A stretch of DNA of 64,000 nt, from NCBI GenBank assembly GCA_949284985.1, contig CASDWY010000005.1, positions 1 through 64,000 of the forward strand, in the 5' to 3' direction. The notes beneath the pieces are model-generated. The model ran no database searches and had not been told where the DNA came from. It saw nothing but the letters and a program-made list of their open reading frames with translations. Shown piece by piece: positions 11,743 through 57,934 of this stretch (its first letter is position 1; every line of letters starts with the position of its first letter). The stretch is from an uncultured bacterium (lineage in GTDB: Bacteria > Cyanobacteriota > Vampirovibrionia > Gastranaerophilales > Gastranaerophilaceae). A program made the translations under genes and the position numbers.

Positions 11743-12384
11743 ATGCAGCTTATTGAAATTATTAGAGATGTAACAGGATTAACTCGGCAAAAAGTAAGTT
11801 ATCAGGATATCGCAAATGCTTTAGGTGTATCGCGTCAATACGCACACCAAATAAAAGACAAAGATGTTTCAGACGAACAACTAAAGAAAATTGAAGAATA
11901 CTTTAACGTTAACATTTCAGAATCAGATTACAAAAATACAGTCGGTTATGTAAATGATTGTGTTGCAATAGAACATATTCATATAAACCCAAGTTGCGGT
12001 CATGGAACAGCAGTTTATTATGATGCGGAGATTACACCTGTTAAACTTGGAACGCAGCTGATAAGAGATATTTTAAAAGTAACATCCCCGGCAAATTTAA
12101 AAATATTCAAAGCTTCAGGAGATAGCATGGCGCCAACTATTGAAGATGGTGATATTTTACTGGTTGACGTGGGCAGAACAGATTTCAACAATGGCGGTAT
12201 ATTTTTATTAACTATCAATAACGAATGGTTTATAAAACGACTTAGATTAAGAATTAGCGGTGAACTTGAAATAATTTCAGAAAATTCTGCAAAATATGGA
12301 GCACCTGAAGTTCTACATCCGTATGATGAGGTAGAACTTGTTGTAAAAGGACGAGTTATTAAAAACCTAAGCAGAGGTCTATAG
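11743..12384 (+). CDS. S24 (LexA/CI-like) transcriptional repressor
   Basis: A 213-aa protein. The N-terminal HTH (about 18-40) includes SYQDIANALGVSRQYAHQI. The C-terminal S24 peptidase domain (about 85-210) has KASGDSMAPTIEDGDILLVD with the catalytic Ser at about 128 and the general-base Lys in WFIKRLRL at about 165. Such CI-type regulators act as dimers and in many cases self-cleave on RecA signals. The strand before the catalytic domain has CGHGTA rather than the usual Ala-Gly cleavage site, so self-cleavage is uncertain. AAGGA precedes the ATG. No phage genes are nearby. Confidence 0.88.
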   Translation: MQLIEIIRDVTGLTRQKVSYQDIANALGVSRQYAHQIKDKDVSDEQLKKIEEYFNVNISESDYKNTVGYVNDCVAIEHIHINPSCGHGTAVYYDAEITPVKLGTQLIRDILKVTSPANLKIFKASGDSMAPTIEDGDILLVDVGRTDFNNGGIFLLTINNEWFIKRLRLRISGELEIISENSAKYGAPEVLHPYDEVELVVKGRVIKNLSRGL

Positions 12385-12385
12385 C

Positions 12386-12988
12386 TTATTTATTAGCTTG
12401 TTTTAATGCAGCACTGAGAACGAGATTCTTTATTTTTTCGTTTTTAGATTTAACTGCTTTTATAATTGCATCGTCATCTATAACCGCACCTGAGTTTATA
12501 AGCAACTCAGCAATATCGTATTGTTTTTTTGCCAAAGCAGCGTATATTGGTGTTACACCATCGCACATACTGTTTACGTTTGCATTATTATCTACAAGAA
12601 CTTTTGCACAGTCATAACACTTTTTGTTGATTGAAAAAACAAGAGGAGTTACGCCTATAACTTTCAATTCAGGATTCGCACCATTTTTAAGCAAAGCTTC
12701 TAATGAATCAGAACGTTTTGAGCCGATTGCCAACATTACAGGTGTCAGTTTCATTTGAGTTGTATCAGGATTCATTCCGGACTTTATGTATGCTTCAATA
12801 AGCTTTGTATCCCCCTCATATACAGCATTCATAAAATTTGTTTTCGTATATTTTTGCACAACTATAACTTGTTGACGATAGTATTCAGAAGTTTTATCAA
12901 CATTTTTATCTGTTATTTCATCAGCATAAGCTATATTTAGCGACATAATTGCAAAGCATAAAAATACAATTGACAATATTTTTTTCAT
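12386..12988 (-). CDS. secreted ankyrin-repeat protein
   Basis: A 200-aa protein with signal peptide MKKILSIVFLCFAIMSLNIAYA (about 1-22) and four to five ankyrin repeats from about residue 55: GDTKLIEAYIKSGMNPDTTQ, LTPVMLAIGSKRSDSLEALL, VTPLVFSINKKCYDCAKVLV and VTPIYAALAKKQYDIAELLI. It probably mediates protein-protein contacts in the periplasm or at the surface. A good Shine-Dalgarno (GAGGAG) is present. The stop codon is 1 nt from the S24 gene stop (convergent). No partner can be named. Confidence 0.88.
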   Translation of the reverse strand: MKKILSIVFLCFAIMSLNIAYADEITDKNVDKTSEYYRQQVIVVQKYTKTNFMNAVYEGDTKLIEAYIKSGMNPDTTQMKLTPVMLAIGSKRSDSLEALLKNGANPELKVIGVTPLVFSINKKCYDCAKVLVDNNANVNSMCDGVTPIYAALAKKQYDIAELLINSGAVIDDDAIIKAVKSKNEKIKNLVLSAALKQANK

Positions 12989-13135
12989 GTAAAAATCTCC
13001 TCATACAATATTATAAATTTATTTTAGCAACAATTTTCAAAGAAAGCAAAATTTAAGGAAAATTTAAACTTTACGCAAGTGCAGTCAAGAAAAATTTTTA
13101 ATTAAAATTTTGGGATACACGAAAAATGATTCAAG

Positions 13136-13843
13136 CTAACTAATTGATTTATATAATTCAAAAGCTCTAATTACTTTAGAATTATTTTGAATTTGATAAA
13201 TTTTTACTAACGCCCATTCGGAGACAGAATCCAATTCTTCTTTTTTAATATAACCGGCGTCATAAGAAGATCTAAGAGCTTTATCAATAATATTGTACAA
13301 TTTACGCAGAGTACGATTATCCATTCTGTGGATTGGTCGTGAAAAATAATCCGCCAGACCTCCTGAATTATCTTCAAGCGTTTTGTATAATTTTTCAAGA
13401 ACAGTTTTGACGTCAGAGAGCTCATGCTCCAAAAATGATGCGACTTGATTTTTTGTTCCATGTCTGTATACATATGTTTTAACTTTGTCGATATCACTGG
13501 TTCTTTGAGCGTCTTTAAGACTAAACTCATTTTTTATTATAGATTCAATATATTTATTTACTTCTTTTTGCTCAATACCTAAAGACTTTGCCAACAAAAT
13601 TTTATCACCTTTTTTAGTAAAAGAATTTTTTATTGGTCTAAATCTGATTAAAGGTCTATGCTTCATCAATTCTTTGAACTCCGTCAGAGTAATTTCTTGT
13701 TTCAGAGTATCATTTACAAGAGAAGAATTATTTTTTATAAATTCAGCTTTTTGTTTATTTGTAAGTTGATTAGATTCCAAAATTTTGTAAAGCTGGATAG
13801 AATCTAGATTATAAATTCCATTAATTGCAGAAATGTTATTCAT
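13136..13843 (-). CDS. conserved-looking hypothetical protein behind tRNA-Leu
   Basis: A 235-aa, largely helical, charged protein with no signal peptide or membrane segment and no domain I recognise. Segments that look structured are LYKILESNQLTNKQKAEFI, LAKSLGIEQKEVNKYIESI and HRMDNRTLRKLYNIIDKAL. The start lies only 26 nt downstream of the 3' end of tRNA-Leu on the same strand. No clear promoter, terminator or Shine-Dalgarno lies between, so it may be read through from the tRNA gene. Codon use resembles its neighbours. Confidence 0.7.
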   Translation of the reverse strand: MNNISAINGIYNLDSIQLYKILESNQLTNKQKAEFIKNNSSLVNDTLKQEITLTEFKELMKHRPLIRFRPIKNSFTKKGDKILLAKSLGIEQKEVNKYIESIIKNEFSLKDAQRTSDIDKVKTYVYRHGTKNQVASFLEHELSDVKTVLEKLYKTLEDNSGGLADYFSRPIHRMDNRTLRKLYNIIDKALRSSYDAGYIKKEELDSVSEWALVKIYQIQNNSKVIRAFELYKSIS

Positions 13844-13869
13844 ACTACCAAATTAATTTTTAGTTTGAG

Positions 13870-13954
13870 TGGTGGGCCCGGAGAGACTCGAACTCTCACA
13901 GATTGCTCCGCTAGATCCTAAGTCTAGTGCGTCTACCAATTTCGCCACAGGCCC
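13870..13954 (-). tRNA. tRNA-Leu (anticodon TAG)
   Basis: On the minus strand: acceptor GGGCCTG/CGGGCCC, class II variable arm, anticodon stem CTAGA/TCTAG with loop CTTAGGA, T loop AGTTCGAGTCT, and CCA encoded at 13872-13870. Confidence 0.95.
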
Positions 13955-14005
13955 TTTTGTCATGCGTAAAATTTGTAGTTCTGTATCAATAACTTACCCT
14001 AAACC

Positions 14006-14638
14006 TTAAATTGCGTCAAGTATTAGTTTTAAATCTTTTTTATCTATTATTATATTGGCGGCTTTTTTCAATATAGGTTTGGCGCAAAAGGCTATTTTTG
14101 TTGAAGCATGTTTAAACATACTGATATCGTTTGCTCCATCTCCGACAGTGAGTGTTTCAGCAGGTGTAATATTTAAAAGTGTTTGAAGTTTTTTTATTAT
14201 TTCTCCTTTGCTTTCACCAAACATCATTTCTCCGCCTACCAACCCTGTTAAAAGTCCGTTTTTAACGTGCAAAATATTTGAAAATTCTGCGTCTATGCCA
14301 AGGTTGTTACATATTGGGATTGTTGCGTTTTTAAATCCGCCTGAAAGACATACCACTATGTAACCTCGTTTTTTTAGCTCAGAAATTGTTGTTTTGGCTC
14401 CTGGAGTTAATGGGAGATTTCTGCAAATTTCATTTACCCTTTCAAGCCTCATTCCTTTTAGCAGGCTTATTCTTGTTGTTAGGCTTTCAAAAAAATCTAA
14501 TTCGCCTCTCATTGCTTTGTCTGTTATAGCTTTTACTTTTTCTACTATTCCAAAATCTTTTGCTAAAAATTCTATCGTTTCCCCATCCATTAGGGTTGAA
14601 TCAAAGTCAAATACTGCAAGTTTTAATTGATTGTTCAT
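14006..14638 (-). CDS. serB: phosphoserine phosphatase-like HAD hydrolase
   Basis: A 210-aa HAD protein. Motif I is VFDFDSTLMDGETIEF with nucleophile and acid/base Asp at about 10 and 12, and the adjacent E-x-x-x typical of SerB. Motif II is VCLSGGF, the conserved Lys lies in GESKGEIIKKL, and motif III is TVGDGANDISMF. It would release serine from phosphoserine, feeding cysteine and glycine synthesis. The ATG directly abuts the stop of the upstream secreted-protein gene, so the two are co-transcribed. Confidence 0.88.
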   Translation of the reverse strand: MNNQLKLAVFDFDSTLMDGETIEFLAKDFGIVEKVKAITDKAMRGELDFFESLTTRISLLKGMRLERVNEICRNLPLTPGAKTTISELKKRGYIVVCLSGGFKNATIPICNNLGIDAEFSNILHVKNGLLTGLVGGEMMFGESKGEIIKKLQTLLNITPAETLTVGDGANDISMFKHASTKIAFCAKPILKKAANIIIDKKDLKLILDAI

Positions 14639-15214
14639 TTATTTTGTCCAAGTTTCGGCAACAAGATTATAATCTAAGCAACCGTATACTATTTTTGCTT
14701 TTAGGTCATTTTCTATATAAATTATTTTAGCATAATTTATTGTTTCTGCGTTATAGTCATTTTGGGTTTCCTTTGCCGGGATTTTTCCGATTAGACTACT
14801 ACCTTGATAAAAATTTATAAAGAATTTTCCTTCTTTCGTTTTTGCTGCCAGTACACGATAAAAGCCTGGTGTAATTACTTCATTTTTTACAAAAATTGTT
14901 TTAGGAACGAGCAGTGTTGGATAATTTTCGGCTAATTTTCGTAAAGTTGTTAGATTAGTTTCGTTAATATTATTTGGGTTTATGGCTTCTCCAACCTTTT
15001 TCTTAAATTTTTTTTCTTGTTTTTCTTTTGATTTTTTTGTTCTTTGTTCTATAATTTTTTCGAATTGTTCGTCTGTAATAATTTTTTGCCCATCCCAAGC
15101 GTCTTGCATTTTTCCAATATCGCTCCACTCATCAGAGCTGCCTGAATCATCTGCAGCTAAGGCAGAGGTGCATATAAGAAAACTAGTAAAAAGTATTAAA
15201 AAAAGTTTTTTCAT
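14639..15214 (-). CDS. secreted hypothetical protein upstream of serB
   Basis: A 191-aa protein with a signal peptide at about 1-20 (ending ALAA), an acidic stretch, a Lys/Glu-rich helix (KSKEKQEKKFKKK) and a C-terminal domain of about 100 residues. That domain contains TIFVKNEVITPGFYRVLAA and INFYQGSSLIGKIPAKE. I do not recognise a family. It is the first gene of a unit with serB. No Shine-Dalgarno is visible; the -10 box TAAAAT ends 6 nt before the ATG, so a leaderless mRNA is predicted. Confidence 0.75.
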   Translation of the reverse strand: MKKLFLILFTSFLICTSALAADDSGSSDEWSDIGKMQDAWDGQKIITDEQFEKIIEQRTKKSKEKQEKKFKKKVGEAINPNNINETNLTTLRKLAENYPTLLVPKTIFVKNEVITPGFYRVLAAKTKEGKFFINFYQGSSLIGKIPAKETQNDYNAETINYAKIIYIENDLKAKIVYGCLDYNLVAETWTK

Positions 15215-15220
15215 ATTATT

Positions 15221-15248
15221 ATTTTAATAATTTACAGTAGAAAGTAAA
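15221..15248 (-). promoter_or_regulatory. promoter of the secreted-protein/serB unit, predicted leaderless
   Basis: On the minus strand: TTTACT (15248-15243), a 16-nt spacer, TAAAAT (15226-15221), then 6 nt to the ATG. No Shine-Dalgarno is present. It is divergent from another promoter of the same type at 15302-15330. Confidence 0.6.
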
Positions 15249-15301
15249 CCTCTGTTTAATTGAGAAAGATTAAATAAGCCTGTTATTATTTCTTAGTATA
15301 A

Positions 15302-15330
15302 TTGGCAAAACTTTCTTATTAATATAAAAT
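15302..15330 (+). promoter_or_regulatory. promoter of the dppB-like gene, predicted leaderless
   Basis: TTGGCA at 15302-15307, a 17-nt spacer and TAAAAT at 15325-15330, then CAATTT and the ATG at 15337. No Shine-Dalgarno. Confidence 0.65.
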
Positions 15331-15336
15331 CAATTT

Positions 15337-16305
15337 ATGAGTTTAGTTACATATATTTTCAAAAGATTATTGCAAACAATTCCACTATTAGTAATAGTGT
15401 CATTGATAAGCTTTTTTTTAATAAGACTTAGCCCTGTGGATCCTTTAGCAGAAATAAGGCTTAATCCGTCTATCTCTCAAGAGACACTAGATGCAGAAAT
15501 AAAGCGTTTAGGGCTGGACAAGCCTATAATTGTTCAATATTTTAAATGGGGTAAAAGCTTTATAACGGGTGATTTGGGTGTAAGTGTTACGGGCGAAAAA
15601 GTTTCTGATCGTTTAAAAGAACGTATTCCAAACACATTATTACTTGCAGGTGTTGTTATTTTGCTTACTTGGCTGGTTGGTATACCGTTGGGAATTGTGG
15701 CGGCTTTAAATTGGAAAAAGCCCATAGACAGGATACTAACAGTTTTTTCAAGTATTGGTATGGCTATTCCGTCGTTTTTCTTTGCATTATTATTATTAAT
15801 TTTTGCGGTTAAAACGAGTTGGTTTCCTACCGGAGGGTTGACTTCTTTTAATTTTTCGGGTTTATCAATAGGGGGAAAAATAGCGGATATTATATGGCAC
15901 CTTGTTTTACCGGTTACGGTTTTATTTACACTTTCACTTTCTGGACTTCAGAGACAAATGAGGGGAAATTTGCTTGATGTTTTGGGTGCTGATTATGTTA
16001 AGTTTGCAAGAGCCAAGGGACTTTCTGAGACAAAAGTCGTGTATAAACATGCTCTTAGAAACGCTATAAATCCAATGATAACACTTTTGGGCTTTGAGTT
16101 TTCTTCTTTGTTAAGCGGTGCAGCTTTGACAGAATTTGTTTTTCAATATCCTGGTTTAGGAAGGTTAATATTAGAAGCGGTTTTAAAGTCTGATATTAAT
16201 CTTGTTATGGCTTCGCTTATGATGGGGACTATAATGTTGATATTGGGTAATTTAATTGCAGATATTCTTCTTAAAATGGTAGATCCTAGAGTGAGGATAG
16301 GCTGA
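15337..16305 (+). CDS. dppB: oligopeptide/dipeptide ABC transporter permease (DppB/OppB type)
   Basis: A 322-aa inner-membrane protein with about six TM helices. The N terminus MSLVTYIFKRLLQTIPLLV is typical of DppB. The cytoplasmic EAA loop (GADYVKFARAKGLSETKVVYKHALRNA) docks the ATPase. It imports peptides or, in some members, nickel; the substrate is not readable here. The last codon overlaps the start of the DppC-type gene. No ATPase or binding-protein gene follows, so those must be encoded elsewhere. Confidence 0.92.
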   Translation: MSLVTYIFKRLLQTIPLLVIVSLISFFLIRLSPVDPLAEIRLNPSISQETLDAEIKRLGLDKPIIVQYFKWGKSFITGDLGVSVTGEKVSDRLKERIPNTLLLAGVVILLTWLVGIPLGIVAALNWKKPIDRILTVFSSIGMAIPSFFFALLLLIFAVKTSWFPTGGLTSFNFSGLSIGGKIADIIWHLVLPVTVLFTLSLSGLQRQMRGNLLDVLGADYVKFARAKGLSETKVVYKHALRNAINPMITLLGFEFSSLLSGAALTEFVFQYPGLGRLILEAVLKSDINLVMASLMMGTIMLILGNLIADILLKMVDPRVRIG

Positions 16306-21835: not shown

Positions 21836-24800
21836 TTATTTGTATAAAGGTATCATATTTGGGAAGATTAGTTTAGGTTCGTATTTTTGAGGATTTACTT
21901 TGTAGAACACAGCAGTGTTTTTGTCAGAGTTTAGAATTGATATAGCATTAAAGCCTGTTGAATCTTCTCTTTTAAGTTTATATTTGTTGTCTTCTATTAC
22001 AACTTTATATATACCTTCATTATCACCAACTTTTTTGAATATTTCACCTTCTTTTAATCCGCCTTTTATACCTTCTTTCCAGTTAAAGTCATCTAAAACA
22101 ATTCTATCAAGGTTTACTGCATTTGGTCTGTTCATAACGTGGTAATTATCAAGTTGAGCGCCTTGGGTAGTATATAGGCAGATTACTTGTGAGCCTTTGT
22201 CGTTATAACGGAATGTAGCTGCAACTTTACTGCCATCTTGTGCTGTTTGTATAGGAAGTGATATCGTATGACCGTTGTTTAGTGCAGAAAGTTCTTTTCT
22301 GTTTCTTAAGCTTCCTATTGCAGTCATTCTTTTGTAATAAGCATTGACAAAATCTTTGTTTTCTTTAAATCCTAAATCATTGTTTTGAATTGTATTATTT
22401 ACCCATTCGAAAGGAACAGCGTTTCTGTTTTGTTGAAAATCATTATTAGATTTTGTTTCATAACCAGAAGAACCTTCTTTATCTCCTACAAAGTCGGTAG
22501 GAGAGCCTGGAAGAGTAACTAACATTTTATATACTGTTTCCATTTTATCCATAGCGGGTTCGAGTATATTTTGAAGAGCTTTAGCTTCATATTCTTTTAT
22601 TTTGTCGCTGTTGTAGCCAAGATATTTAGCTTCTTCAAATACGTGTTGAATTGCATGTTTAAAATCTCTTGTTCCAAACGCATCCGGATTAAACTTTTTG
22701 CCTTTGAATTGACCTTTTACGAGATTGGCTATAGCATTTCTTAATATTTTACTATTTTTTTGTTTTAGATAATCTGCATGTTCAAATTCAGCATCTGTTA
22801 GAGTTGCGCCAATACATTCGAGTGCATAAATAATTCTTTCACCCATAGCTACAGCTTTTGAGCTAATTGTTTTTATAGATACTTGTTCGTCATATCCAAG
22901 ATTGAGGACTCTTCTTGCTCTGTTTAAGTGTTCTTTATTTTCAAAATCAGAGTGGAACAGTGCCATATCAAGACCAAATATATGCAAAACTCTTGGTTTG
23001 TCGTGGTTACCTACAAATGTATAAGAATTTGAAATTGAATCATCCGGGTATTGGAATAAAAAGCCATGACATTTTCCAGACCAACCATGAATAAGTTTGT
23101 TTGGAATGTTGTGAATATTATTGAATTCATTGGCATTTCCATCTTCAGAGTTGTTTGCGAAAAGATCCTTTAACATAGAGTAGAAAAACATGTAGTTTGC
23201 AGTATTGTTCAAACCTGTTTTTTCAATAAATTTTGTTTCTGCGTTAATTTCATCGTGGAATTTGCCATTTGGATTTTTTATAACAGTTTGGAGATCTGTA
23301 ATTTCAGCTGTTGTAAAGGCGTGTTTGTTTTCTTTTGTAACAACGTTCTTGAATTTACTCCAAAAATCTATAACAGCCGAAAATAATTCGTCATCATTGT
23401 CATTTCCGGTTCTAATTGCGTCGATATTTGCAATATCTTTGGCAGCATCAATTCTCCAACCAAGTCCGGATTCTGTTTGGTCGACTATTGCTGCAGCCAT
23501 TTTTACGCTAACTTCATTTGTATCTTTTATTCTGTTTACAATATATCTTATTAATGTTTCTTTTTCTTCTTCTTTTCCGTTGAATATATTTTTAAGTCCT
23601 TTTTGGAGTTTTTGGATAGTTTTTTGGGCTTCTATTTCTGGAGAACCTTCTGCTCCAATACTTTTTAATGATATTTGATCTACTTTAGCTTGAGAATAAT
23701 CTATTTTTTGGTTTATAGGATCTATAGTTATTTTTGCCTTTGGATTAAGTGCTTTGACCATTCCATATTTCATCAGATCGGGCATCAAAAAGGAGATAAC
23801 AAATTTTCCATAATCTGTTATTTCTAAACTTCTATGTTTAAAGATTTTTTGATTATTTGGCATTCTAAAATCAACCCAAGTAAGCAAATCTTCAATGTAA
23901 TTTGTAAATTCATTGTTGATTACATCGTCTGTTTTGTTATATACATTTGAGTATTTTGTTGGAGCAGGACCTTCATTAATATCTCTTTCTACATACATTT
24001 CATGTCTTTTCTTAAAGATGTCACCTTCTGTTGTTCCTCGTTTAGTTATATATGGTGAGGCTAAAACAGCTGTTAAATCCGGTGCAAAATCTATTGATTC
24101 AAGAGGAAAATCCATAATTTGGCTTTGTATGTATGGTTTTCTCCATTTTATGAATTCCATTGTATTTAAGTTGTTAAAGACATATTTATTGGAGATAACG
24201 TTTTGAATAACTTTATCAGTCATTACTTCTTTAGTTCTTTTAGGTAGATTGCCAAGTTCAACTTGCTCTGCTATTACCTGTTTAAATCTATCAACTAAAG
24301 ATAATTGAGGTTGGACTGTGTTTTCTGACTTTATAGCGTCTTTAAGTGTATTTGCGGCAAATTCAGTTTGTGTATTTGCAACTAATCTTGTCCAATATTG
24401 TGCTGATTTTAATGCAAAATCTTGTACTTGATAAGTTGCAGCTATAATATCTTTAGTTTTTTGTTTTTTCTCATCTATATCAGTAAATTTATTTAAATAA
24501 GCTTGATCGGTATTTCCTATATAGAAATTAAGCTTAGCTATATCCATATTACCATCCCAAAGATCAAAACCGCCTTTGTCTTTGGTCTTAATTTTGAAAT
24601 TTTCAAAAGATAAAAGAGCTTCAATAAGTTTTGTATTATTAAAAGTTAATTCTTTTGATGAGAAATTCTTTTTAACCTTTTTTACATTATTTTCAAAAGT
24701 TTTGGGGTTAATTTGGAAAGCAATCAGTTGAGTTATATCGTTATGACCTGTAATATCGTAGGCATTTTCAGTATTAGGTATTGAATATCTTTCTAAGAGT

Positions 24801-25897
24801 TTTGTTGTATCAGCTAACTCTTTATTTGTGACTAATCTTTTGTCGTAGAGTTGAATAAATGTTGGTTTTTTTGCATCATAATCTCTATTAGAGTCAAATT
24901 TTAATTTTCCGTTTTCTTCAATTAAAATATTAGGAGAATTTACTAATCTAAAGCGGAAGTTTTTTCTGGCTTGCGGGTTCGCAGGAATAAGACCGAGTTT
25001 AAGATCGGAGCTTAAAATTCCTGAAGCTTTAAACCAGTTAATAAATGGGGATTGCGCACCATGTTTAAGAACATTTTGAAAAATTGTACCTTGTAAACCT
25101 TGGTTAACAAAAGCGCCATCTGCAATAAAATTTATTCCGTTTTTAAATAATTCAATTTGAAGTGTTTTAAAATCGTCAAGAGTTCCCAATCCTTTATCAA
25201 CTTGGTAGGGGTTTTCTGTCCAATAATAATGAGAAGAAGTTGTATCTCTTGTATAAGGAGTTCCTACAATTTTAGTATATCCTTCACGACTCCAAGTTGG
25301 AAGCATTTTAATTATACCAGCGAAATTACCTCCAAGCTTGTTTCCATGTGTACGAACAGCGTTTATTGCACGTTGTCTTTCTATAGGATTGAATACAGGT
25401 TTTTTTGTTTGAGGGTCGAGATAGTATCCTGGTAAACAAATATCCGGCATAACTTGTTTTGTAAGCCCATTAATTGTTAATACTGCTCTGTTAGGTAAAA
25501 TTAATGAATATGTGTCATTAGGTGTTTTGGCATTTGGATTTGTTTGAAGTCCCGAATCAATTTTGTAGAAGCTGTTATTTGGATTATTTTTTTCGGTTAG
25601 TTTAAATCTGTACCCTGTTGCTGTTCCTTTTTCTGTAAATAGATATTTTTCCGGAATGCTTATTCCTTCCGGCCCCATTTCATATGTAAGAACATTGCTG
25701 TCTTCAATTTTTTGCCAAATTCCGTTTTCTTCTTCAAAACCACAAAGTTCTAAAGTGGCTGAATATTTATTGCTATCATATGGAAGATAGAATTTGTGTC
25801 CTGTAAGCCCTTTATCTGTAGAGTAGGCGGTGTGCCCTTTGAAGCTTACATAGCTGTTTTTATTTATTGCTGGGGTAATTGTAATTGAAGTTTTCAC
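21836..25897 (-). CDS. large divergent alpha-amylase-like (GH13) protein
   Basis: The start is set at the GTG ending at 25897: AAAGGAG lies 6 nt before it, whereas the TTG and ATG further upstream lack a site. The protein has 1353 aa. The core shows GH13 landmarks: GTLDDFKTLQIELFKNGINFIADGAFVNQG (region I position, about 240-267), GLGWRIDAAKDI (region II with nucleophile Asp, about 815), TTAEITD (possible acid Glu, about 863) and FVGNHDKPRV (region IV, about 963). Region I has N-Q where N-H is usual. About 500 residues separate regions I and II, far more than normal. There is no signal peptide; SFKG occurs at about residue 18. Probably an intracellular glucan-active or pseudo-enzyme. Confidence 0.7.
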   Translation of the reverse strand: MKTSITITPAINKNSYVSFKGHTAYSTDKGLTGHKFYLPYDSNKYSATLELCGFEEENGIWQKIEDSNVLTYEMGPEGISIPEKYLFTEKGTATGYRFKLTEKNNPNNSFYKIDSGLQTNPNAKTPNDTYSLILPNRAVLTINGLTKQVMPDICLPGYYLDPQTKKPVFNPIERQRAINAVRTHGNKLGGNFAGIIKMLPTWSREGYTKIVGTPYTRDTTSSHYYWTENPYQVDKGLGTLDDFKTLQIELFKNGINFIADGAFVNQGLQGTIFQNVLKHGAQSPFINWFKASGILSSDLKLGLIPANPQARKNFRFRLVNSPNILIEENGKLKFDSNRDYDAKKPTFIQLYDKRLVTNKELADTTKLLERYSIPNTENAYDITGHNDITQLIAFQINPKTFENNVKKVKKNFSSKELTFNNTKLIEALLSFENFKIKTKDKGGFDLWDGNMDIAKLNFYIGNTDQAYLNKFTDIDEKKQKTKDIIAATYQVQDFALKSAQYWTRLVANTQTEFAANTLKDAIKSENTVQPQLSLVDRFKQVIAEQVELGNLPKRTKEVMTDKVIQNVISNKYVFNNLNTMEFIKWRKPYIQSQIMDFPLESIDFAPDLTAVLASPYITKRGTTEGDIFKKRHEMYVERDINEGPAPTKYSNVYNKTDDVINNEFTNYIEDLLTWVDFRMPNNQKIFKHRSLEITDYGKFVISFLMPDLMKYGMVKALNPKAKITIDPINQKIDYSQAKVDQISLKSIGAEGSPEIEAQKTIQKLQKGLKNIFNGKEEEKETLIRYIVNRIKDTNEVSVKMAAAIVDQTESGLGWRIDAAKDIANIDAIRTGNDNDDELFSAVIDFWSKFKNVVTKENKHAFTTAEITDLQTVIKNPNGKFHDEINAETKFIEKTGLNNTANYMFFYSMLKDLFANNSEDGNANEFNNIHNIPNKLIHGWSGKCHGFLFQYPDDSISNSYTFVGNHDKPRVLHIFGLDMALFHSDFENKEHLNRARRVLNLGYDEQVSIKTISSKAVAMGERIIYALECIGATLTDAEFEHADYLKQKNSKILRNAIANLVKGQFKGKKFNPDAFGTRDFKHAIQHVFEEAKYLGYNSDKIKEYEAKALQNILEPAMDKMETVYKMLVTLPGSPTDFVGDKEGSSGYETKSNNDFQQNRNAVPFEWVNNTIQNNDLGFKENKDFVNAYYKRMTAIGSLRNRKELSALNNGHTISLPIQTAQDGSKVAATFRYNDKGSQVICLYTTQGAQLDNYHVMNRPNAVNLDRIVLDDFNWKEGIKGGLKEGEIFKKVGDNEGIYKVVIEDNKYKLKREDSTGFNAISILNSDKNTAVFYKVNPQKYEPKLIFPNMIPLYK

Positions 25898-26082
25898 ACA
25901 AGACTCCTTTTGCATGCTTTTTTTTGTTTTAATGCTCCTCAAGACACTTTTTTGCTTTAGCTTATGGGCATTTTAATAAAAATTTACATTCTAGGATACA
26001 GATTGTAAATTTATATACCAAATAATAATACCTCATAAATATTTCTGTTAAAATAATAATAGAGAGAAAAACTGGGAGAAAG

Positions 26083-54514: not shown

Positions 54515-54799
54515 TTACCTTCTAGCTTTTTCTATAATTTGGCTATAAGTTATACTTTTAGATTGACTTGGTAAATCTTTTTGTTGTAAATAGGCCAGGA
54601 TGAATTTTGTATATGGTATATTTAAAACTTGAGTGCCGTTTTTAGTAATTACTCTTGTGCTTTCGTCGAGTTTTTCTTCTTTTATTCCAATAATGTCATT
54701 AGTATCATACAAAAGATTACGCTTATCGTAATAGTTTGAGAGCTTTATATTTATATGCCCTTTAAAAGCAGGATTATTTAATAAGTATTTAATGTTCAT
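54515..54799 (-). CDS. 94-aa hypothetical protein with FKG motif
   Basis: A 94-aa protein starting MNIKYLLNNPAFKGHINIKL. The remainder (IIGIKEEKLDESTRVITKNGTQVLNIPYTKFILAYLQQKDL) is soluble with mixed strands and helices. No family known. The ribosome site AAGGTG is good. It ends 2 nt before the decayed gene and is first of the cluster. The N-terminal A-F-K-G-H matches S-F-K-G-H of the amylase-like protein. Confidence 0.68.
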   Translation of the reverse strand: MNIKYLLNNPAFKGHINIKLSNYYDKRNLLYDTNDIIGIKEEKLDESTRVITKNGTQVLNIPYTKFILAYLQQKDLPSQSKSITYSQIIEKARR

Positions 54800-55025: not shown

Positions 55026-56792
55026 TTGATATCGCCAGTAAGGGTTTACTCTATTAATAACAAAAAATATTCAAATCCCTCTTTTAAAAGCAGGGTTGTT
55101 TCTGATTTTCCAGCAGGGTCTGCAACAGAGCGAGTAAAGGCGTTGGTAGATATTTTTGAGGAGAAGCCTGGACTTTTTAAAAAGCTAGGAGAGGGGGATT
55201 CTTCTCAAGTATATTTGCTTGATGAGTCGGATAAGCTGGTTATAAAAAAATCGCAAGCGGGTAAAAGTGCGATTAATAATAAGTTTGAGCATGAAGCAGA
55301 AATATTGCAAAGTATTCCTAGTTCGTTTTGGCCCACACAGCGTTTTAAGTCCAGAGTTTTAACTGAAAACGGAAAATATTATTTAATTTCAACTTTTGTT
55401 CCGGGGAAAAAAGTTGATTATAATTCAAATCCTTTAGATTATGTTAAAATGTGTTTGATTGGTAGTTCTTTAAGTGATTTGGATTGTAATAATATTTATC
55501 ATAATGATTTGAGCTTTGAAAATCTTTTGATAAATGATGATTTGTCTGATGCTAATGTTGTTGATTATCAGTTAGCAAAAAGATTTAAACCTTATGAAGA
55601 TAATAGCGATTTAAATATATATTTTCCAAAAACGATTATTCCGGGTAATTATTTAAATTTTGAGGAGTTTTCGTATATTCCATATTTGCTTAAGTATGCT
55701 TCAGAGCATAATATTAGGGATACAAGAAATTTTTTCAAGGATTATTTAAATGTAAAATCATACTATCATGATGCAAGATTTGAGCGTTTTAAAATTAAGG
55801 CAATTAAGGAAGATAATAATTTTTATAATAAAGACGGATCTTATAACAAAAGAGTTACAGTACCATTGATGTACGAAGAAGCTTTGGCAATGGTATATGA
55901 GCATCCTAATGATGATGTAATTGACTTAGAACTGCTTAAGATGGACTTTTTGTATTCTCATAAAAAGTCATATTCTTTTACTGATCCGAATAATAGAAAG
56001 AATATTAACAATTTGAACGCATATCCATATTTAGCTAACACTGTGATGACCTTGAGTAATTTTTATCATAAGTTGTGTGAATATGAAGAAACAAATAAAG
56101 ATACGAGGTTTGTATCAAAATATATTCAGTATAATAAAGATTTCGCAGAATATTATGCCAATCTATATAAAAAGTGGCTTTGGGGAACGTTTAATTATTT
56201 GATGGATTTAACGGCAGGGTTAGAAAAAATTAACCAGACTAGACCTCTTGGTCCCAAAGCGAATAAAACATATGTGTTTGAGAAGTTTCAAACGTTAGCA
56301 CCATTAATAAGAGATAGATCTAAACAATATAATTTAAATTTAAAGGTGTTGGGACCAAGTAGAAATGAGGAAATTGCAGGGTATGTCTCTGATCTTAATG
56401 ATGCACTGCAAGGATTATATGGTCAAAAAGCAATGAAATCATATGTTGCTAAATTTGATCAAGATAAAAATATATTTGTTTATGACCAAATAAGAATTAT
56501 TTATAAGCAAATTTCGCAATCTATTCAGGAGTTAAACCAAGGGAAGCCGATAAATGCGATTATGGTTGGACTTAATGCACGATTGTTAAATCATCAATTG
56601 TTTGAGTTAGGAAAAAACTCTAAAGGTGATGAATTTGCTGCTCTTCGTGATGCAGCAGGTAAGTTGGGTTTTAGACTTGAACATTATTTGATTAAAGTTC
56701 AAAGTGAAATAATGGAGCTTTTGAATTTTAATCATAAATACAGGGTTAGTGAGCCGGATGATGGGTTGCTAACTTATATAGCAGATAATTAA
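55026..56792 (+). CDS. protein-kinase-fold protein
   Basis: A 588-aa protein starting at TTG (GAGG upstream; no ATG near). Residues about 54-185 form a kinase-like core: LGEGDSSQVYLL (Gly-rich loop), DKLVIKKS (Lys), FEHEAEIL (helix C Glu), IYHNDLSFENLLIND (H-x-D-x4-N, about 159-166) and VVDYQLAK (metal Asp, D-Y-Q in place of D-F-G). The remaining 400 residues are helical and unrecognised. The key residues are present, so activity is plausible. N-P-S-F-K lies at residues 17-21. A HAD phosphatase gene follows after 11 nt. Confidence 0.75.
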   Translation: MISPVRVYSINNKKYSNPSFKSRVVSDFPAGSATERVKALVDIFEEKPGLFKKLGEGDSSQVYLLDESDKLVIKKSQAGKSAINNKFEHEAEILQSIPSSFWPTQRFKSRVLTENGKYYLISTFVPGKKVDYNSNPLDYVKMCLIGSSLSDLDCNNIYHNDLSFENLLINDDLSDANVVDYQLAKRFKPYEDNSDLNIYFPKTIIPGNYLNFEEFSYIPYLLKYASEHNIRDTRNFFKDYLNVKSYYHDARFERFKIKAIKEDNNFYNKDGSYNKRVTVPLMYEEALAMVYEHPNDDVIDLELLKMDFLYSHKKSYSFTDPNNRKNINNLNAYPYLANTVMTLSNFYHKLCEYEETNKDTRFVSKYIQYNKDFAEYYANLYKKWLWGTFNYLMDLTAGLEKINQTRPLGPKANKTYVFEKFQTLAPLIRDRSKQYNLNLKVLGPSRNEEIAGYVSDLNDALQGLYGQKAMKSYVAKFDQDKNIFVYDQIRIIYKQISQSIQELNQGKPINAIMVGLNARLLNHQLFELGKNSKGDEFAALRDAAGKLGFRLEHYLIKVQSEIMELLNFNHKYRVSEPDDGLLTYIADN

Positions 56793-56803
56793 TAAAGTAA
56801 TGT

Positions 56804-57934
56804 ATGAGAATTCAAAATATTTTTAGACTAAGTAATATAAAAAAGTATTCCGGTAAGGTTAGTTTATATACTGACTTTGATGAAACACTAATGCCACTTG
56901 CTTTTGATGCAATGAAAAAAAATGCGCAAGAGGAAAAAAGCCAGTATGTTGATGCTTACAATAAATATTTTGGTAAAATCCAGCAGTATATTAGAGAACA
57001 AAAGGGTAATTTTGAAATAAGCATTACTACTGGTCGAAAATTTGCTGCAGGAGGTCCTTATGATTTTATAAAAGCGTATAAAGCGTTAACAGATGCAGGT
57101 GTTGTTTTTCCTAAAATAAAGGAAGTTATAACAGAGGATGGTGGGGATATTTATGCTTTTTCTAAGTCTGGGCATCTTGATACTGCTCCATTAAAAGAAA
57201 AAATTGATACTATTTCGAAAGCAACAGGCTGGAAAAAAGAAAAAGCTGATAAGTTTGTTAAAGAGTCTGCTAAAGAATTTGGGGTTGAATCTTCAGTTGT
57301 TTCTCGCGGAAGCTCTCATAAGCTTGACGTTATTCTGTCAGATAGTAGTGTAATTAATGAATTTTTTAATACATTACTTTCTAAATTTAATAAAGCAAAG
57401 ATTCAAGTGAGAATGTTAATAGAAAATATAAAATACAGAACAAATGGCGAAGTCTTAGAAAGTGGTCTGGGGGTGCGTGTAGAGCCTTTGGCTGATGGGC
57501 ATGTTATTAGAAAAGATTTTGATGTGAAGCTCAAACTTAAAGATGCAATAAAACATGGTGGATATGTAATTGCTGCTGGCGATGCTCCTAATGATAAAGA
57601 AATGTTGAATATATTTAATTATCTTGGAGCAAAAAATATTGATTCTGTAGAAAAAATTAATAGCCTTAATAAAAGGGCTGTTGAAGAATTTAAAAAGAAA
57701 TTAAGTAAGCTACCATTTGGAGCTATTTTTGTTGATCATGTGTTTGAGCAGAGAAATTCTGCACAGTACATGGATTTTTATAATCTTGGAGTTTTTATGC
57801 AGCAGTTGCAAAGACTTTTCCCAAGTAGAGTTAAAATTATAAAAAAATCTAATGTGGCTACAGAAAATCTTTTGTTGGATGCCGTAAAACAGTTAATAGC
57901 AGATTACAAGGCAGAAAAAAATTTATTTCAGTAA
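56804..57934 (+). CDS. HAD-superfamily phosphatase
   Basis: A 376-aa protein. Motif I: LYTDFDETLMPLA (nucleophile and acid Asp at about 24 and 26). Motif II: ISITTGRKFA. Motif IV: VIAAGDAPNDKEML (about 255-270). The layout resembles Cof/sucrose- or trehalose-phosphate phosphatases (type IIB cap). A C-terminal extension of about 100 residues (DHVFEQRNSAQYMDFYNLGVFMQQLQRLFP) is not part of the HAD core. It lies directly behind the kinase-like gene, suggesting opposed or sequential action on the same substrate. Confidence 0.8.
   Translation: MRIQNIFRLSNIKKYSGKVSLYTDFDETLMPLAFDAMKKNAQEEKSQYVDAYNKYFGKIQQYIREQKGNFEISITTGRKFAAGGPYDFIKAYKALTDAGVVFPKIKEVITEDGGDIYAFSKSGHLDTAPLKEKIDTISKATGWKKEKADKFVKESAKEFGVESSVVSRGSSHKLDVILSDSSVINEFFNTLLSKFNKAKIQVRMLIENIKYRTNGEVLESGLGVRVEPLADGHVIRKDFDVKLKLKDAIKHGGYVIAAGDAPNDKEMLNIFNYLGAKNIDSVEKINSLNKRAVEEFKKKLSKLPFGAIFVDHVFEQRNSAQYMDFYNLGVFMQQLQRLFPSRVKIIKKSNVATENLLLDAVKQLIADYKAEKNLFQ

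Follow-up and report, generated by a model that had tools for sequence, protein, structure and literature searches.

The gene pair and its active sites

The window (the whole stretch of DNA analysed, 64,000 nucleotides) contains two adjacent genes on the forward strand. The first is a kinase-like gene (P0001, positions 55026–56792) that encodes 588 aa from a TTG start codon, which GAGG precedes by 8 nt. The second, a HAD-IIB-type phosphatase gene (P0002, positions 56804–57934), encodes 376 aa from an ATG start. The open reading frame list and the translations bore out both frames and the 11-nt spacing reported in the first-pass annotation. A terminator scan found no such site between the two genes, and the sole terminator-like site found lies inside the kinase gene, at chance level. 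Upstream of the pair on the minus strand, a 94-aa open reading frame without a family match (54515–54799) carries N-N-P-A-F-K-G at its N-terminus.

We aligned 32 kinase and 26 HAD homologues, whose identity to the window proteins is about 20–35%. The kinase core residues claimed earlier are real, and the residue set of the protein kinase superfamily (Gly loop, Lys, helix-C Glu, Asp, Asn, metal Asp) is complete in the window kinase. In the 32 relatives, the glycine-rich loop G-E-G-D-S (residues 55–59, positions 55188–55202) has an invariant G57 and a G55 kept in at least 90%, and Lys74 (55245–55247) and the helix-C Glu90 (55293–55295) are invariant. The same is true of D161 and N166 in the catalytic loop, H159-N-D161 to N166 (55500–55523), and of D180 in the metal-binding D180-Y-Q (55563–55571), which stands in place of DFG. 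Q105, N208, E213 and Y220 are invariant residues specific to the family. The HRD and DFG motifs of Hanks-type kinases are missing, being replaced by H-N-D and D-Y-Q in the window kinase and by H-G/N-D and D-Y/F-Q in its relatives, and the kinase is therefore not classed as Hanks-type.

The window kinase matched the Pkinase model (PF00069) with an E value of 1.9e-5 and 24.6 bits, below the curated cut-off of 31.7. Among the 32 relatives, Pkinase matched 21 (best E 2.5e-15), ABC1 matched 12 and APH matched nine; a search of the window genome with PF01636 (APH) gave no match. The profile of the 32 relatives matched solved protein kinases (E 1.6e-10). The AlphaFold model of the kinase is of low confidence (mean pLDDT 52.8) and usable over about residues 31–385. 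With this low-confidence model, virtually every match listed by Foldseek was a protein kinase (best E 2.5e-6), and the top match in VIA was TkArkI (7vnx; Z 8.1, hardly above other protein kinases). The Gly loop and the profile and fold matches thus favour a protein-kinase-like enzyme over an APH-like one. The 400-residue C-terminal part of the protein had been called unrecognised, which still holds for residues 386–588 (about 200 residues) but not for residues of about 190–385, where the family alignment, the model and the fold matches place conserved helices in the C-lobe position.

A contig search with the window kinase sequence alone found no relative. When a sub-alignment of one clade was used as the query, the relatives in named genomes came nearly all from Candidatus Gastranaerophilales. 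Across the searches, every strong full-length relative belonged to the family of the window genome. Elsewhere in the phylum the kinase profile matched the core alone (profile positions of about 50–200), so that within the searched data the full-length kinase family is confined to the window's family.

The claim of complete HAD motifs was likewise confirmed, since motifs I–IV are present and conserved across the 26 homologues. Motif I, D24-F-D26-E-T28 (56873–56887), has invariant D24, D26 and T28; motif II, T75-T-G-R78 (57026–57037), has invariant G77 and R78; and the Lys237 of motif III (57512–57514) is invariant. In motif IV, G259-D-A-P-N-D264 (57578–57595), G259, N263 and D264 are invariant and D260 is kept in at least 90%; the HAD of L095 is an exception in this motif and reads GNETND. 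Their arrangement is that of subfamily IIB, in which the cap is inserted after motif II and before motif III; here about 160 residues separate R78 from K237. The HAD-IIB model TIGR01484 matched 19 of the 26 relatives, and the window HAD scored 17.8 bits against it, below the curated cut-off of 41.8. The 100-residue tail, which had been set apart as unknown, is instead aligned family sequence in which P304 is invariant and L357 nearly so. A membrane segment is predicted at the C-terminal end of 12 of 35 HAD relatives and is absent from the window HAD. The structure prediction for the HAD (pLDDT 43) was unusable; searched against solved structures, the window HAD alone gave no match and the family profile gave weak matches.

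Linkage, co-occurrence and trees

We searched 191 genomes of the window's family with the kinase and HAD profiles and scored 39 HAD loci. A homologous kinase lay within 5.3 kb of the HAD gene in 29 of these loci and within 1 kb in 26, so that the adjacency seen in the window is conserved in related genomes. By our estimate, which assumes a 1.9-Mb genome with between one and a few copies of the gene, the chance that a random place falls within 1 kb of a kinase gene is well under 1%. The 29 linked loci comprised 15 with the HAD gene followed by the kinase gene, 12 with divergent genes and two with the kinase gene first. The usual same-strand order is therefore HAD then kinase, and the window has the rarer order. 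The other ten HAD loci were unlinked, some of them on broken contigs. It should be noted that the divergent loci g6, g19, g33, g36 and g41 have kinases that were no part of the profile that found them.

Both genes were found in 31 genomes, the HAD alone in five, the kinase alone in 18 and neither in 137 (Fisher p 5e-18, with no correction for relatedness among the genomes, which appear to be mostly metagenome-assembled). Kinase and HAD tree distances were correlated (r 0.78, 0 of 2000 permutations), and part of this correlation could stem from shared descent. The kinases of G024 and G010 cluster while their HADs fall apart, which suggests that partners were exchanged without loss of linkage. 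In the HAD tree the window copy falls into a small, well-supported group together with an unlinked HAD, the G010 copy in kinase-then-HAD order and HADs of flagellar-type operons in G010 and G047; the window kinase forms a long branch of uncertain place. At L180, the gene after a short family kinase encodes another HAD-IIB protein, which matches the sucrose-phosphate phosphatase model S6PP (E 4.7e-18).

A functional link between the kinase and the HAD is strongly supported by these comparisons: the genes stay adjacent in three arrangements and tend to occur in the same genomes, their trees largely agree, and the catalytic residues of both proteins are conserved. We found neither a loss of catalytic residues in most orthologues nor a lack of conserved linkage. 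The first-pass annotation had suggested a module for reversible phosphorylation or two-step salvage; its functional link is upheld, and the data do not separate its two alternatives.

Neighbouring genes and a shared N-terminal motif

A pentapeptide-repeat gene joins the pair in HAD-then-kinase loci of several genera. Double-size HADs of 782–871 aa (L072, 12130–14745; L080, 5100–7712; L069, 2523–4871) were observed in operons shared with pentapeptide-repeat genes and the kinase gene. In all ten divergent loci of one clade that were read at length, the pair is accompanied by a radical SAM gene and a gene of the c82 family, and eight of the ten also have a c83 gene. A conserved block of kinase, HAD, radical SAM-SPASM, c83 and c82 genes was seen in several genera (L096, L100, L116 and L167–L173).

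A single solved structure matched the c82 profile, namely that of a GH13 maltodextrin glycosyltransferase (E 1.5e-4); the match runs in colinear pieces and aligns its R-L-D-M-G-H with R-A-D-M-A-H of c82. A Pfam search of c82 gave nothing convincing, and the GH13-like character is therefore a good lead and not an assignment. Kinases without a HAD lie 2–6 nt from a large gene of GH77 (4-alpha-glucanotransferase) type in L081 (10520–14440), L098 (4548–8416) and L099 (4853–8758), the last of which matches GH77 with an E value of 2.7e-34, and in L179 a relative of this gene is one gene away from the kinase. No glucan gene adjoins the pair in the window. At 21836–25942 on the minus strand, the window encodes a protein of 1368 aa that matches the alpha-amylase catalytic domain (E 4.1e-13) and has V-S-F-K-G as its N-terminal motif.

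Kinases and HADs begin with a variable polar N-terminus that is followed by [S/N]-F-x-[S/A/G]. In the window kinase the motif reads P-S-F-K-S-R-V (residues 18–24, positions 55077–55097), with F20 invariant in the 32 relatives. The window HAD has the degenerate form Y-S-G-K-V (residues 15–19, positions 56846–56860), where relatives have F-[KT]-A-G-K-V; F14 is present in at least 90% of HADs and the window HAD has Tyr there. One fixed pattern found the motif in 40 of 60 kinases, 31 of 42 HADs, nine of nine c83 proteins, eight of ten pentapeptide-repeat proteins and three of four GH77-type proteins, and in none of 15 radical SAM and none of ten c82 proteins. Because the pattern was picked after the families had been viewed and family members are not independent, p-values for it are indicative. 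In a 442-kb sample of the window's own genome, about 7% of other N-termini carried the motif, compared with 5% of internal stretches. This near-background frequency ran against our expectation that the motif would be abundant genome-wide and shows that a few families account for most of its occurrence. A DEAD-box helicase also carries a similar motif, as does a CheR methyltransferase. Within the open-access literature, which leaves out most subscription papers, we found no published description of the pair or of such an N-terminal motif.

Proposed function and comparison with known systems

The kinase and the HAD probably act on the same target, as an on/off switch or in a two-step pathway, because their genes are repeatedly adjacent and both active sites look intact. 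Our preferred reading, to which we assign a probability of roughly 45%, is a lineage-specific writer/eraser pair whose two enzymes share a target, possibly one in alpha-glucan metabolism. The kinase-like enzyme would phosphorylate this target and the HAD-IIB phosphatase would take the phosphate off again; the target would most likely be a protein, or a protein-bound or glucan complex. A role in alpha-glucan handling is possible, with some of the linked proteins carrying the same N-terminal motif, and the glucan context may extend to the window's own copy. The writer/eraser reading is favoured by the linkage, the co-occurrence, the conserved catalytic residues, the correlated trees and the partner exchange, by the L180 kinase with its different HAD-IIB partner, and by the Gly loop, profile and fold matches of protein kinase type. 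The glucan context is suggested by the radical SAM and GH13-like genes in the ten divergent loci and by the GH77-type genes at three kinases without a HAD. However, the kinase lacks HRD, DFG and a Pfam score above cut-off, 18 genomes have the kinase alone and five the HAD alone, no glucan gene lies next to the window pair, and the HAD-IIB relatives whose function is known mostly have sugar phosphates as substrates.

A more specific version would be a phospho-switch of the Gastranaerophilales' own, in which a divergent protein kinase and a HAD-IIB phosphatase of proteins (or glucans) act on target proteins, including alpha-glucan enzymes, that share an undescribed N-terminal tag. We regard this version as doubtful. 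If true, it would form a system for signalling or compartmentation that differs from the PP2C-based systems found in other bacteria.

The main rival to the writer/eraser reading is two-step small-molecule phosphate chemistry, in which the kinase would phosphorylate a sugar or oligosaccharide and the HAD would hydrolyse a related sugar phosphate. Both steps would belong to carbohydrate metabolism, whether of alpha-glucans or of other compounds. Members of the HAD family match HAD-IIB, Cof, sucrose-6-phosphate phosphatase and trehalose-6-phosphate phosphatase models, and the S6PP match of the L180 partner, the APH matches of nine kinases and the GH13-like and GH77 neighbours in sublineages are also consistent with such a pathway. 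Maltokinase, which phosphorylates maltose, is a small-molecule kinase with a protein-kinase-like fold in a glucan pathway, and we counted it on the same side. The Gly loop, profile and fold matches nevertheless point to protein kinases and not to APH, which is a family without a match in the window genome, and neither most HAD-then-kinase loci nor the window has a conserved sugar-metabolism neighbour. We consider this pathway somewhat unlikely.

The two genes might also be linked through co-transfer or shared regulation only, with unrelated substrates. Linked genes can travel together and several genomes carry just one of the two, but co-transfer alone hardly explains three arrangements, an apparent exchange of partners and an independent pairing with another HAD, and we judge it improbable.

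Another alternative is that both proteins are substrates of flagellar-type type III export, with the N-terminal motif as the signal, and that they work extracellularly or on other cells, whether those of the host or of neighbours. The FHIPEP (FlhA-type) export gate was found in 145 of 146 family genomes and in 126 of 126 of good quality, often as at least two paralogues, including G000:C12 (L108–L110). Most Gastranaerophilales genomes then at hand had incomplete flagellar gene sets (Soo et al. 2014; PMC4040986), and the gate may be kept for a purpose other than swimming. In G010 and G047, which belong to the same genus, a HAD of the window copy's subgroup (L091, 7730–8719; L094, 6458–7459) is flanked by an flhB-like and an flhA-like gene. 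Beside an export-gate gene in L115, we observed neighbouring paralogues (11807–13609 and 13692–15575) that start with MGLSASQARLLS and look like candidate substrates of the gate. The polar and variable N-termini before the motif also speak for export. The near-universal gate made the export-signal reading look strong at first, but it was demoted once a similar motif was found on the helicase and the CheR protein, which makes export a weak reading of the motif. A predicted membrane segment ends 12 of the 35 HADs, and a nearly universal gate contrasts with a patchy pair, so that we hold export to be very improbable.

Least probable is a defence or toxin-antitoxin-like module with a harmful kinase and the phosphatase as its brake: the distribution is patchy and the kinase core weakly matches the PD-T4-6 defence kinases (E 2.4e-6), but these matches are limited to the core, the HAD matched no defence model, no relative of the pair was found in phage or plasmid records, and the neighbours read are not defence genes.

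Several known systems resemble the writer/eraser pair in part. TkArkI, the archaeal RIO-like kinase that was the best VIA match, aligned over 193 residues with an rmsd of 6.0, but its Z score is barely above that of other protein kinases (7.5), the identity is 18% and the kinase model is of low confidence. The maltokinase/GlgE alpha-glucan pathway would share the protein-kinase-like fold and, in sublineages of the window family, the glucan context, whereas the window-family kinase possesses a Gly loop and finds its best matches among protein kinases, and neither a trehalose synthase nor a GlgE gene was noticed among the neighbours read. The HAD-IIB sugar phosphatases (for sucrose-6P, trehalose-6P and mannosyl-3-phosphoglycerate) are similar in motif order, in the cap between motifs II and III and through weak model matches; the window HAD differs in being far below their cut-offs and linked to a kinase, and some of its relatives have a C-terminal membrane segment. 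SerB of Porphyromonas gingivalis is a HAD phosphatase that acts on proteins, with no linked kinase reported there (PMC8787120); compared by description, it is similar in its HAD chemistry and in the possible protein substrate of the window family.

Bacterial Hanks-type Ser/Thr kinases often share an operon with a cognate PP2C (PPM) phosphatase, as in PrkC/PrpC (PMC6213207). The window family likewise encodes a protein-kinase-like enzyme and a phosphatase side by side, but its phosphatase is of the HAD-IIB and not the PP2C type, and its kinase has H-N/G-D and D-Y/F-Q and no PASTA or other sensor domain that we could find. Adjacent kinase and phosphatase genes, in most cases with a PP2C (PPM) partner, and protein-acting HADs are thus already known, and what is new in the sources searched is the conserved HAD-IIB partner of a divergent kinase. 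The pair together with the radical SAM, c83 and GH13-like genes provides a defined set for a substrate hunt, and the shared N-terminal motif offers a way into a feature of these proteomes that is so far unexplained. In a little-studied gut order known mostly from metagenomes, a HAD-IIB partner retained across rearrangements would widen the meaning of a cognate phosphatase beyond the PP2C enzymes of PrkC/PrpC-type pairs.
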